Origin: Actinoallomurus soli | Lineage (GTDB): Bacteria; Actinomycetota; Actinomycetes; Streptosporangiales; Streptosporangiaceae | Assembly: GCF_024055715.1 (NCBI RefSeq) | Contig: NZ_JAMXMV010000006.1 | Coordinates: forward strand, 372,001 to 436,000 | Length of the DNA: 64,000 nt | Direction of reading: 5' to 3' | Part shown: positions 6,872-10,535 of the stretch, one piece after another | Layout: the number at the start of each line of letters is the position of its first letter | Position numbering within the stretch: the stretch's first letter is position 1 | Notes under the pieces: generated by a model | What the model saw: only the letters and a program-made list of their open reading frames with translations | What the model was told of the DNA's origin: nothing | Databases searched by the model: none | Translations under genes and position numbers: made by a program

Positions 6872-8041
6872 TCAGCGGCCGAACCTGACCTGGCCGCGCG
6901 CGTCGGCGGCGAGCCGTACGGAGTCGCCGTCCCGTAGCGGCGCCTGCTCGCCCGGTCCGAGACGCCGGTCGTTGACGAACGTGCCGTTCGTCGAGCGCTC
7001 GTCGCGCACCCACGCCTGGCCGCTGCCGTCGACGCCCAGCACCGCGTGCCGCCGGGACACGTTGTCGAAGCGGGAGAACGTGCCGGCGACCGGTGACTGC
7101 ACCGGGTCCCGGCCGAGGACCAGCTCCTGACCCGCGCCGACCTGCACCTCGCCCGAGGAGAACTGGACGAACACCGTGACCTGCTGCGGGCCCGGGGCGC
7201 CGCTCTGGTCGTGCAGCGGGCGCAGGCAGTTGACGCAGACGGGGTTGCCGACGTCGGGGATGTCGGCGCCGCAGTGCGGGCAGAACGGCGTGAACGCGGC
7301 CGTCGACTCGCCACCGGTCATGGTCGGCTCGCGCGGCGGCGGCGGCACGTGGGGCGCGCCCGGCCCGCCGTAGCCGCCTCCGTACCCCTGCTGCTGCGGC
7401 GGGGCGTACTGCTGCTGCTGGTGCGCGCCGTAGGGCGGCTGCTGGTCCTGCGGCGGCCCGCCGTACGGGGACGGGTCCTGCTGGGGCGGCGCGCCGTACG
7501 GCTGCTGGCTCTGCGCCGGCGGGTACCCCCGCTGCTGGTCCTGTGGTGCGCCGTAGGACTGCTGCGCGCCGCCGTACGGAGACGGGTCGTGCTGCTGGTG
7601 CGCGCCGCCGTAGGGCGGCTGCTGGTCCTGCTGCGGCGCTCCGTACGGGGACGGGTCCTGCTGGGGCGGCGCGCCGTACGGCTGCTGCTCCTGCGGGGCG
7701 CCGTAGGACTGCGGAGGCTGGTCCTGTCCGTACGGGGACTGCTGGGGCGCGCCGTACGGCTGCTGGTAGTCCTGCTGCGGCGCCCCGTACGGCTGCTGTG
7801 GCGCGCCGTACTGCGGCTGGTCCTGCTGGGGTGCGCCGTAGGGCGACTGCTGGTCCTGCTGCGGCGCGCCGTACTGCTGCTGCCCGTACGGCGACTGCCC
7901 CTGGTCCTGCGGCGGGTAACCGCCGGGCTGCTGGGCCGCCGGGGGTGCCTCCCGCCGGGCCAGGTTCGCTCCGCAGTTGATGCAGATGAGATCCCCTTGC
8001 CGTACCGGCGCGGCACAGACCGGGCATGTCAGGGGCGCCAT
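6872..8041 (-). CDS. Zinc-ribbon / low-complexity / FHA-domain protein
   Basis: 389 residues. Residues 6-23 form a zinc ribbon (CPVC...CINC). Residues 37 to about 235 are a Pro/Tyr/Gly/Gln linker built of PYGAPQQD-type units. Then comes a second ribbon (CPHCG...CVNCL) and a C-terminal FHA domain with GRDP, SRRH and STNGTFVN, the residues that hold phosphothreonine. It should read Thr-phosphorylated partners, perhaps of a Pkn kinase. It is the last gene of an operon with the radical-SAM and AAA+ genes; its start overlaps the radical-SAM stop by 13 bases. The linker composition resembles phase-separating segments (inference). No membrane segment is seen. Confidence 0.9.
   Translation of the reverse strand: MAPLTCPVCAAPVRQGDLICINCGANLARREAPPAAQQPGGYPPQDQGQSPYGQQQYGAPQQDQQSPYGAPQQDQPQYGAPQQPYGAPQQDYQQPYGAPQQSPYGQDQPPQSYGAPQEQQPYGAPPQQDPSPYGAPQQDQQPPYGGAHQQHDPSPYGGAQQSYGAPQDQQRGYPPAQSQQPYGAPPQQDPSPYGGPPQDQQPPYGAHQQQQYAPPQQQGYGGGYGGPGAPHVPPPPREPTMTGGESTAAFTPFCPHCGADIPDVGNPVCVNCLRPLHDQSGAPGPQQVTVFVQFSSGEVQVGAGQELVLGRDPVQSPVAGTFSRFDNVSRRHAVLGVDGSGQAWVRDERSTNGTFVNDRRLGPGEQAPLRDGDSVRLAADARGQVRFGR
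7350..7933 (-). repeat. In-frame degenerate repeats encoding PYGAPQQD-type units
   Basis: Roughly twenty imperfect units of about 24-36 bases encode variants of YGAPQQD/Q and SPYG within the FHA protein. The repeated CTGCTG and GCGCCGTA blocks are obvious on the plus strand. Unit number is likely to vary between strains. Confidence 0.75.
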
Positions 8042-8706
8042 GAAACCTCCCCGGCGTGTACCCCGGAGAGCGAGAGTCGCTGCGTCAGCCGCTCCATGTC
8101 GCCCCTCCGAGGAATCCCGATGTAGTAGATACGGTTGTCTTCCACCGAAACCTGCATATGGGGGGGTTCTTCGCCCCTCTCCGCGTCACCATAGCGTTTC
8201 CTGCCAAGGTCGCTGACGGTGATGAGCTGTTGGTTCGACGATCCGCGCCACCGAAGCCCCCGATCTACCTGGTTCAGGCGTTCAATGTACGGTCCCGTGA
8301 CCACCGCATCGCACAACTCCAGGAGTTCGCGGGTGCGGGCGGACCTCCGGAGTCGTGACGCGGCGTAGCCGCTGTACACCAGAACGTCGACCTCGGGCGG
8401 CGCCCAGGCCCGGATGCCCAGCAGCAGCGCGCGCAGCGCCTCCGGCTGCTGGAAGGGCTCTCCCCCCGAGATCGTGACGCCGTCGACGCCGGTCAGCGAC
8501 CGCAGCCAGCCGAGGACCGCGCTCACCGGGATGGCGGTGCGCGGGTCCGCCTCCCAGGTGTCGCGGGACACGCAGCCGGGACAGTGGATCGTGCAGCCCT
8601 GGGTCCAGATGCCCGCACGTCGGCCGGGCCCCAGCGTGGTGACCGGGAAGTGCGCCTTGGCGAGCAGGAGTGTCCGCTCCTGGCCACCGTCCTCGTCGGC
8701 GGTCAC
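8029..8706 (-). CDS. Radical-SAM activase-like protein (4Fe-4S, NrdG-like)
   Basis: 225 residues. The motif C38-x3-C42-x2-C45 (GCTIHCPGC) would bind the 4Fe-4S cluster, and S-GGEP at 80-84 would contact S-adenosylmethionine. The size and the WTQGC motif match small activating enzymes such as NrdG, which make glycyl radicals, but no glycyl-radical enzyme is nearby. The C-terminal part is not recognisable. The GTG start at 8706 overlaps the AAA+ stop (GTGA), so the two are translationally coupled; a longer open frame upstream is a shadow of the AAA+ gene. The target could be a protein unfolded by the AAA+ partner, which is speculation. Confidence 0.85.
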   Translation of the reverse strand: MTADEDGGQERTLLLAKAHFPVTTLGPGRRAGIWTQGCTIHCPGCVSRDTWEADPRTAIPVSAVLGWLRSLTGVDGVTISGGEPFQQPEALRALLLGIRAWAPPEVDVLVYSGYAASRLRRSARTRELLELCDAVVTGPYIERLNQVDRGLRWRGSSNQQLITVSDLGRKRYGDAERGEEPPHMQVSVEDNRIYYIGIPRRGDMERLTQRLSLSGVHAGEVSWRP

Positions 8707-10535
8707 CGCAGGTCCAGCCGGACGATGCTGCCGTCGCGGTGCACGCCCGAGACCGTCACGTCGGTGGCCGGCCCGAGGTCGAACAGCGCGCGGGCGAGGG
8801 GGTTGATGAAGTACGACTCCAGGGCCATGCCGATGCCCCGGCCGCCCTTGTCCAGCTCGCTCGTGCACCAGGCGCGCAGGGTCGCGGTCACCTCGTCCGA
8901 CAGGCGCAGCTTCATGTGGTGTTCGTCACTCACGCGCCGGCAGATGTTGGCGAGCTGGAGGTCGAAGATCCGGTCGGCGGCCTCGGGCCCGATGAAGTCG
9001 AAGATCACGATGTTGTCACCGAAGCGGTTGAGCAGCTCCGGGCGGTTCAGCGCGGTCGTGAAGTGCTCGGTGATCGCGCTGCGGACCTGGGCCTCCAGGT
9101 CCTCGTACGGCATGCCGGGCGTGATGCCACGAGTGCCGAGGTTGGAGGTGAAGACGAGGATCGACTCGGAGAAGAACGCGGTGTTGCCGCGGCCGTCGGT
9201 GAGCCGCCCGTCCTCCAGGATCTGCAGGAACTTGTCGAGGATGCGCGGGTGGGCCTTCTCGATCTCGTCGAACAGGATCACCCGGAACGGGTCCTGGCGG
9301 ACCGCGTTGGTCAGCTCGCCGCCGGCCTCGAAGCCGACGTAGCCCGGCGGGGAGCCGATGAGCCGGTCCCCGGCGTGCTCGGCGGAGAACTCGCTCATGT
9401 CGAAGCGGAGGTAGGCGTCCTCGTTGCCGAACACGAGCGAGGTGATGGCCTTGGCCAGCTCGGTCTTGCCGACGCCGGTCGGGCCGGCGAAGAACAGCAC
9501 GCCGCGCGGGCGGCTGGAGGCGCGGGCGGCCTGCGCGCCCGACAGGCCCAGCACCGCGCGCTTGAGGATGTCCAGAGTCTTGGTGACCGCCTGCGGCTGC
9601 CCGACCACGCGGGACGGCACCCGCTCCTCGCCCTCGACGATGCGCCGGCGCAGGTGCTCGCGCTTCCAGGGGTTGTCGAGCACGCCGAGCTTGTAGGTGC
9701 GGACGGCGTCGGGCAGGTCCTGCAGCGGGACGTCGCGCTCCTTGGCGAGCCGGGTGATCTCGATCATCGCCTGGAGCGTGAGACCCTCCGCCTCCTGGGC
9801 GAAGTCGTCGGTGACGTCGACGCCGGAGTCGCTGGTCTCGAACGCGCGGGCCAGCAGCCGGGCGGTCTGCTGACGGTCACCGAGGTGGGGACGCGGGATG
9901 GCGATCTCGCGGACCGCATCGTTGTCGGCGGTGAACCACGGAGGCAGGTCGCCCGGACGGCCGGCCAGCCAGATGACCGGGTTGTACAGCGGCTTGGGCC
10001 GGTCGCCGTCACCGCGCACCGGCAGCGCCGTGCGGGACAGCTTCTCGCAGAACACGAAGAAGTCGCGCTCGGCGGGTTCGAGGTCGGTGGGGCTGCGCGC
10101 GATCCGGGACGCGTAGTCGATGACGAACGCGGCGCGGATCTGCCGGGTCGGCCGGGCCAGCGCGCTGAGGTACGTGCGCAGCCCCTCCAGGGAGGGGGCC
10201 TTCCGCTCGTCGACGCGGCTGCCGAACAGGCTCGCGGCGGCGTCGGCGGCGGCCTTGTCGTCGGCGGGGTGGACCCGCAGCCCGTCGACACGGTCGTAGA
10301 CGACCATGAAGGAGTAGCCGCTGCGGCGCAGCGCCTCCCAGAGCAGCTCGCGCAGCGGGAACAGCCTGCCCTCGTCGGGGACGAGGAAGCTGTCGTGCAG
10401 GTTGCCCCACAGGACGTACTGCGCGTGGACGGACAGGGTGGCGTCCAGCTCGCGGACGAACGCGGGCCAGCTCGCCAGTCGCGTGTCGCCCGAAGGACGT
10501 CGCGTGTCGCCCGAAGGGCCCGGCTGCGTTGTCAC
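8703..10535 (-). CDS. Clp/Hsp100-type AAA+ ATPase with degenerate N-terminal AAA-like domain
   Basis: 610 residues. Residues 20-290 look like an inactive AAA domain: a Walker-B-like strand (AAFVID, 135-140) but no P-loop. Residues 300-610 match the D2 module of ClpB/ClpA: Walker A GPTGVGKT (351-358), pore loop GYVG (398-401), Walker B VILFDEIEKAHP, sensor Asn in FTSNLG and an Arg in ELLNRFGD. The usual Clp N-domain, middle coiled coil and a ClpP-docking loop are not seen. It is probably a substrate-remodelling unfoldase dedicated to its operon partners. The first 20 residues hold a doubled SGDTR unit from an 18-bp DNA repeat. First gene of the operon. Confidence 0.9.
   Translation of the reverse strand: MTTQPGPSGDTRRPSGDTRLASWPAFVRELDATLSVHAQYVLWGNLHDSFLVPDEGRLFPLRELLWEALRRSGYSFMVVYDRVDGLRVHPADDKAAADAAASLFGSRVDERKAPSLEGLRTYLSALARPTRQIRAAFVIDYASRIARSPTDLEPAERDFFVFCEKLSRTALPVRGDGDRPKPLYNPVIWLAGRPGDLPPWFTADNDAVREIAIPRPHLGDRQQTARLLARAFETSDSGVDVTDDFAQEAEGLTLQAMIEITRLAKERDVPLQDLPDAVRTYKLGVLDNPWKREHLRRRIVEGEERVPSRVVGQPQAVTKTLDILKRAVLGLSGAQAARASSRPRGVLFFAGPTGVGKTELAKAITSLVFGNEDAYLRFDMSEFSAEHAGDRLIGSPPGYVGFEAGGELTNAVRQDPFRVILFDEIEKAHPRILDKFLQILEDGRLTDGRGNTAFFSESILVFTSNLGTRGITPGMPYEDLEAQVRSAITEHFTTALNRPELLNRFGDNIVIFDFIGPEAADRIFDLQLANICRRVSDEHHMKLRLSDEVTATLRAWCTSELDKGGRGIGMALESYFINPLARALFDLGPATDVTVSGVHRDGSIVRLDLR

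Follow-up and report, generated by a model that had tools for sequence, protein, structure and literature searches.

Systems of biological conflict organised around nucleoside triphosphatases are of a known kind in bacteria. Among them, the vWA-MoxR FtsH ternary systems, in the sections of their description available (Kaur et al. 2020, PMC7159879), possess vWA proteins and a protein of two AAA domains, of which the first is dead and the second live; some also carry a presumably peptide-modifying radical-SAM protein and others caspase-like effectors, and they are enriched in multicellular bacteria. A further relative in design is the threonine switch of type VI secretion (PpkA, PppA, Fha1, ClpV), whose account (PMC3953482), as far as the excerpt goes, unites a Ser/Thr kinase, a phosphatase, an FHA adaptor and a Clp-type AAA+ protein. 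The present analysis concerns a stretch of 64,000 nucleotides from Actinoallomurus soli (contig NZ_JAMXMV010000006.1, positions 372,001 to 436,000), called the window throughout, in which three overlapping genes encode an AAA+ unfoldase, a radical-SAM protein and an FHA reader; their partners, a Ser/Thr kinase (KIN) and a helical protein (CC), are encoded elsewhere in the genome. The core of this system appears to be new. The first-pass annotation of the window knew of no pathway joining the three genes, no description of the combination was recognised among the papers listed by searches of the open-licence literature of PubMed Central (PMC), and the available sections of PMC7159879 do not contain it. 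Our reading, held at a probability of roughly 0.58, is that of a phosphothreonine-gated unfoldase and radical-SAM machine belonging to a conflict-system family and kept here without a linked effector.

The likeness to the FtsH ternary systems lies in the pair of dead and live AAA domains and in the radical-SAM protein that some of them contain. However, the AAA protein of those systems, in the excerpt of PMC7159879, is of FtsH type and stands on MoxR and vWA, whereas that of the window is of Hsp100/ClpB-D2 type with a kinase/FHA switch, and no MoxR was present among the subset of AAA-locus genes given to Pfam. With respect to the type VI switch, as partially described in PMC3953482, the system of the window adds the radical-SAM protein and CC, and its AAA+ protein reaches 203 bits against a ClpV1 model cut-off of 885 (202.8 against 884.95 for the equivalog TIGR03345); the ClpB equivalog gives 250 bits with a cut-off of 1232.

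All the window features described here lie on the minus strand. The AAA+ unfoldase (8703..10535) combines a degenerate first AAA domain (about residues 20-290), D1-like, inactive and without Walker A (9666..10472), with an active second domain, in which Walker A (GPTGVGKT, residues 351-358; 9462..9485) is accompanied by the Walker B DE pair, the pore motif GYVG, an Arg finger and sensor 2. Its assignment to the Hsp100/Clp type is based on the presence of two AAA domains, the second of Clp D2 type, and on a fold alignment that spans both rings. The active D2 motifs are retained across the homologues (L043 being excluded from these and from the cysteine, GGEP and FHA motif counts); the Walker B pattern missed 17 of the 84 loci, and the aligned DE pair is invariant in a 26-row alignment. 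A ClpP loop of the IGF/LGF type was found in none of 82 D2 domains by a simple pattern test between sensor 1 and the Arg-finger motif. The dead domain itself, like CC, gave no useful match with sequence profiles of the PDB; kinship with Ycf46 was considered because of one weak hit in a pairwise comparison of profiles (E 0.043, probability 1%) and is not relied on. The radical-SAM gene (8029..8706), NrdG/PFL-activase-like (Fer4_12), overlaps the AAA+ gene at a GTGA, and the FHA reader (6872..8041), with two zinc ribbons and a long linker rich in Q, P, G and Y, overlaps the radical-SAM gene by 13 bases; the make-up of these three genes is thus as it was first annotated.

The three genes form a real module. 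When the dead AAA domain was used to scan a genome collection, 84 relatives were obtained and the best 80 loci kept; as the gene caller had overlooked several radical-SAM genes, counts were taken from six-frame searches. The radical-SAM gene was found at 78 of these 80 AAA loci and the FHA gene also at 78, so that the neighbours are fixed across genomes, as the module idea of the first-pass annotation supposed. The misses are L065, for both genes, L049, for the FHA gene, and L114, for the radical-SAM gene, each at the end of a contig; in L096 the radical-SAM gene is split across two frames. Moreover, among 60 related genomes, a radical-SAM match at E 0.001 was obtained in 18, of which 12 are strong (E 1e-44 or better), and those 12 are the only ones of the 60 that figure among the AAA-positive genomes of the order, to which that search was confined. 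Counting the window's own genome in each set, the dead AAA domain occurs in 8/8 genomes of the genus, 103/345 of the order, 8/394 of the class (including four from the family of the window) and 5/396 of the phylum. The system is therefore fixed at home and sporadic elsewhere.

This module is nevertheless incomplete as first annotated, since the three genes of the window are half of a larger system whose second conserved half, KIN and CC, lies elsewhere in the genome. In other genera the gene order of the operon is KIN-CC-AAA-radical SAM-FHA, where KIN is a Ser/Thr kinase with apparent C-terminal membrane segments (judged by eye) and CC a helical protein of about 350-500 residues, without a Pfam match in the three members scanned. 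Within the genus, whose relatives carry the name Actinoallomurus except for one labelled Actinomadura sp., KIN and CC do not adjoin the AAA gene. CC was found by profile search in all 8 genus genomes, once as a partial match, and KIN and CC stand together in the 7/7 genus places fetched, always accompanied in the stretch by typA, which encodes a translation GTPase; in the window's genome they are located on another contig (C3, about 138,454-142,055). In the sister genera the whole operon is found at the typA site, TypA being in the stretch at 60 of 70 loci of the clade. As KIN and CC of the genus occupy the very site that holds the entire operon in its sisters, the operon has been split with both halves retained. 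A small DUF4282 membrane protein (Pfam) precedes the kinase gene in one locus (L145, 12299-12571, minus strand), and small genes of similar look, upstream of KIN in other loci, may be a further part of the system.

The kinase tails suggest a threonine switch. In a set of 47 such tails, derived from called starts, D or E stands at position +3 from 102 of the 150 threonines, compared with a mean of 26 and a maximum of 38 T..[DE] in 1,000 shuffles, a comparison which is only a guide because the tails are related. At least one such motif is present in 46 of the 47 tails and two or more in 43, and the motif persists despite changes of its inner letters (TRRD, TQRD, TRLD, TELD). On the reader's side, the FHA domain of the window (residues 308-377, GRD...SRRH...STNGTFV; 6911..7120) holds the binding residues GR...S-R-x-H...N-G-T, whose strict pattern is found in 71 of 82 loci. 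Furthermore, the +3 residue and the FHA domain shift together: most D-type loci have N at the FHA position two before the binding serine, while four diverged loci (L160, L162, L163, L164) repeat T-x-x-Q in the tail and have Q at that position; both kinases of a Clostridia plasmid repeat T-x-x-N. The FHA1 domain of yeast Rad53 binds pT-x-x-D, according to the available part of its description (PMC3146460). Because of these repeats, their joint shifts and the Rad53 preference, the kinase's own T-x-x-D/E tail is the likely docking site and client of the FHA protein. A further FHA client is possible in the product of a membrane-protein-like gene (17289..17954) with N-terminal T-x-x-D repeats (DETRRD, ATGRD, ETRRD, ETARD); homologues of it exist in several genus relatives, and those of L044, L046 and L047 also have T-x-x-D motifs. 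Beside it, another Ser/Thr kinase gene, distinct from the KIN of the operon (17960..19549), is a possible accessory.

The nature of the radical-SAM enzyme has to be judged from its motifs, its genomic partners and its place among relatives. The CX3CX2C cluster motif (C38, C42, C45; 8572..8595), on whose conservation the module idea also depended, is intact in 82/82 homologues, and the SAM-binding GGEP in 80/82. Its closest known relations are NrdG and the pyruvate formate-lyase activating enzyme (PFL-AE), with which it shares the fold family and both motifs: NrdG (TIGR02491) is its best family match, with 92.2 bits, and PFL-AE its sole match among solved structures (E 2e-4). These matches are what would favour an ordinary activase of a glycyl-radical enzyme (NrdG or PFL-AE) that came to lie in the operon by chance. 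However, the NrdG score is below the cut-off of 126.1, the protein has an extra C-terminal part, and its gene adjoins the AAA+ gene in three phyla. Its own genome has neither the glycyl-radical domain PF01228 nor NrdD (PF13597), which bears out the earlier remark that no glycyl-radical enzyme is nearby to explain an activase; among 19 module genomes, the own one included, PF01228 was not found in 15 and present in 4, and PF13597/NrdD was found in none. In two of these four that were checked (G004, G005), a radical-SAM-like hit adjoins the glycyl-radical gene, and both hits, with five others, form a separate supported branch in a tree of 48 radical-SAM sequences. The AAA-linked proteins cluster in this tree (4 changes compared with 10.9 in shuffles), although not as one clean clade, with the unlinked L018, L021, L023, L024 and L027 on their side; L023 and L152 are very long branches, and L018 and L024 adjoin what looks, by eye, like another type of AAA+ protein. 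On account of the NrdG score, the missing partners and the tree, the ordinary activase was rejected and is very improbable.

Two other roles may be weighed on the same evidence. A 4Fe-4S cluster can report oxygen or oxidants, so that the protein could be a redox, iron or SAM sensor gating the AAA+ ring and performing no chemistry on a target; nevertheless, the cluster and the SAM-binding motifs are both kept, which suggests catalysis and makes a mere sensor hardly probable. Alternatively, the enzyme could act like viperin on a small molecule, producing an antiviral nucleotide, with the AAA+ protein and the kinase as mere sensors. The conflict-type context would suit such a role, and the plasmid homologue of L173 weakly matches the pVip models of PADLOC (2.5e-7). 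Against it, the window protein has no PADLOC match at E 0.1, pVip (viperin) models included, and is closest to activases that act on peptides, and its constant association with an unfoldase points to a protein as the substrate; viperin-like action is accordingly improbable.

Further radical-SAM genes are found in other settings. On an Acinetobacter plasmid (L173, 13812-16646), two more genes come after the AAA-radical SAM pair: one for a small ATPase of the AAA family and another radical-SAM gene, which matches a viperin model at 1e-11. A radical-SAM paralogue in L041 (9597-13476) is clustered with an AAA+ gene which we take, by eye, to be Ycf46-like, with neighbours resembling DUF1257 and DUF2997 proteins; the association of radical SAM and AAA+ may be a wider theme. 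In L042 (8238-19463), a paralogue lies beside a helical protein starting with MSGAK; by eye, we presume its other neighbours to be a double AAA+ protein of CbbX-like type, a zinc-ribbon protein, a GTPase and a protein similar to GAP1, and the locus to be a DO-GTPase conflict system. The likeness of our system to the DO-GTPase/GAP1 systems of PMC7159879 lies in the related radical-SAM protein and the MSGAK-starting helical protein of L042; at the locus of the window, none of the genes was recognised as a GTPase or as GAP1-like.

As regards a possible substrate, the start of CC deserves consideration. CC begins with M-S-(x)-G in 93 of 107 loci, as counted with a CC model built with diverged members included, ten loci being scored as departing from it and four as edge cases. 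By called starts, with some regions held twice, the figures are 84/108 for CC and 18/1,635 for other genes. Some of the departures are truncated or late-aligned, L097 and L147 in fact holding the motif, and those of L155, L161 and L173 appear to be real. Although CC can otherwise hardly be aligned across the three phyla, the start MSGPK or MSGAK is shared by members from Pseudomonadota, Clostridia and several actinobacteria. S-G is the core of the glycyl-radical motif, and this conserved Ser-Gly at a free end stands beside an enzyme of the glycyl-radical-activase family; the start of CC is on that ground a candidate substrate. A more specific proposal would make the enzyme a glycyl-radical activase whose target has become the very N-terminus of CC: once CC had been loaded or opened by the AAA+ ring, the enzyme would place a glycyl radical or another backbone mark on it, and oxygen in aerobic cells would cleave or cross-link the chain, giving a one-shot, phosphorylation-gated and oxygen-dependent trigger that fires an immune effector. 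This elaboration is a long shot.

The diverged and plasmid-borne relatives look like conflict systems with exchangeable effectors. The search for effectors covered both strands of 27 diverged actinobacterial loci (522 kb) and 70 loci of the window's clade (1,249 kb). In the diverged loci, radical SAM was found in 26, FHA in 22, CHAT in 17, RES in 10, PP2C in 10 and a vWA-like lipoprotein in 7; each of the last four is absent from the 70 clade loci, and at least one of CHAT and RES is present in 17/27 diverged stretches and in 0/70 of the clade. The phosphatase or VWA protein that had been suggested as a fourth partner is thus present in part of the diverged loci and missing from the window's clade. 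The identities of CHAT, RES and PP2C rest on Pfam for the members scanned. The CHAT gene lies on the strand of the core, with no opposite-strand gene between, in 11 of its 17 loci, and in the remaining six it is more distant, lies on the opposite strand or belongs to a locus outside that comparison. One diverged locus inserts a protein with weak NACHT/NB-ARC matches, and in L170, from an actinobacterium of another class, CC, AAA, radical SAM, FHA and PP2C abut in that order. The RES genes of L111, L113, L116, L151, L153, L155, L160, L161 and L164 are preceded by a gene for a partner of 160-224 residues, without a Pfam match in the one tested, which is perhaps the antitoxin half of a pair. A divergent operon beside the core in L122, L151-L155 and L158 comprises the radical-SAM gene together with genes for a lipoprotein with DGSGS, similar to the metal-ion-dependent adhesion site of vWA domains, and for a further protein of about 415-495 residues.

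Ten plasmid records match the dead AAA domain, and the radical-SAM gene adjoins it in the 8/8 fetched, split over two frames in L171. These pairs, from Pseudomonadota and Bacillota, are accompanied by kinase or helicase-type proteins. In six Rhizobium/Caballeronia records a long open reading frame comes next, which has 2,098-2,139 residues in four of them and fewer in L171 and L178, followed by CC (E 1e-9 to 4e-12). The one long protein scanned, from the Rhizobium record L176, contains kinase, DUF4011, helicase and MTES_1575 nuclease domains and matches the PADLOC candidate PDC-S37 at 9e-139. By gene type this recalls the Pseudomonas aeruginosa defence hotspot cDHS1, where, in the excerpt of its description (PMC10250203), a DUF4011 gene lies next to a radical-SAM gene, the two being treated as flanking core genes of the hotspot; DUF4011 and radical SAM are likewise neighbours on a Rhizobium plasmid. 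The genes of Aristaeella lactis (Bacillota) run as follows: kinase, hypothetical gene with a weak CC match (E 7e-5), FHA, radical SAM, AAA and PP2C. PADLOC 2.0.0 gave no full-length match of the core to a named system, only partial kinase, partial AAA or weak pVip matches.

From the gene content and order, the active-site motifs, the motif repeats and the linkage of relatives to effectors, all read in the sequences, we infer the following course of phosphorylation, docking, remodelling and radical chemistry, and with it a role in conflict. The parts would be the membrane kinase KIN, the helical CC, the Hsp100-type AAA+ ring, the NrdG-like radical-SAM enzyme, the zinc-ribbon/FHA adaptor and, in some relatives, PP2C. 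KIN would sense a stress or invader signal and phosphorylate the threonines of its own T-x-x-D/E tail; the FHA protein would dock on this tail and recruit the AAA+ ring, which, with its dead upper and live lower ring, a pore loop and no ClpP-binding loop, would remodel a partner protein without degrading it. The radical-SAM enzyme would then irreversibly modify the exposed chain, and PP2C, where present, would reset the switch. The output in relatives may be the linked effector, namely a CHAT protease, a RES toxin of NAD type or a helicase-nuclease, and in the window's genus the system, spread over two chromosomal places with no linked effector, looks as if domesticated. Of the first-pass model, in which FHA recruits a phosphorylated client, the ring remodels it and the radical enzyme modifies it, the first step has thus gained a likely client in the kinase tail, and the radical modification is kept as a proposal. 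The system may have begun as a bacterial immune-type system, given the cell-killing or DNA-cutting effectors of its relatives, and a domesticated role for the fixed, effector-free version of the window is quite possible.

Several observations weigh against this reading. The tail motif is absent or unclear in L122, L153, L155 and L161, and the FHA residue rule is broken in L118, L120 and L134; taking both together, L118, L120, L122, L134, L153-L155 and L161 are off the rule or without a clear tail motif. In L114 the FHA gene directly follows the AAA gene, with no radical-SAM gene before the end of the contig. In 9/27 diverged loci the radical-SAM and AAA genes are separated, though still close, and seven of these nine have the former in the divergent operon with the vWA-like lipoprotein; the FHA model is without a match in 5/27, and the CHAT, RES and PP2C models were built partly from the loci counted. 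Furthermore, protein distances correlate at 0.88-0.96 among all five proteins, so that conservation within the clade is partly plain vertical inheritance and the coevolution test, being high for every pair, cannot tell function from shared descent. Finally, the system is stable in Actinoallomurus and Actinomadura, with no CHAT, RES or PP2C nearby, which is unlike a mobile defence island, and this stable, effector-free state makes a housekeeping role possible.

In such a role, the machine would serve proteostasis or envelope signalling, for instance the kinase-controlled remodelling of a membrane or growth complex, the typA-linked effector-free version being ancestral and the effector-bearing copies derived. 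It would agree with the presence of the system in every genome of the genus and in some 65 listed genomes of one sister genus, with the frequency of TypA in the clade stretches, with the absence of the effectors searched for at the 70 clade loci and with the identity of 87-96% between AAA proteins across the genus. However, the forms that bear or neighbour effectors span more lineages and phyla, and the sporadic occurrence away from home, in the class and the phylum, is that of a mobile trait. A housekeeping origin is on balance unlikely, though it keeps appreciable weight beside the phosphothreonine-gated conflict machine.

Other genes of the window complete the picture. A lipoprotein-like gene lies immediately upstream of the AAA+ gene (10692..11285) and holds the same position in 7/7 same-genus relatives fetched, with 51-87% identity; its belonging to the system is uncertain. 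Another Clp-type AAA+ gene near the right edge (62421-63998) has 46% identity over the D2 part, and an open reading frame at 4808-5725 resembles, by eye, a class A beta-lactamase-type lipoprotein.

If the proposed reading is true, these genes would represent a class of signalling machines found across bacterial phyla, each uniting a phosphothreonine switch, a half-dead Hsp100 ring and a radical-SAM enzyme in a single working unit. Radical chemistry gated by a kinase and an FHA protein would be added to the biology of bacterial conflict. Where a genome has NrdG-like genes but no NrdD, these genes may then be parts of this system and not of ribonucleotide reduction.

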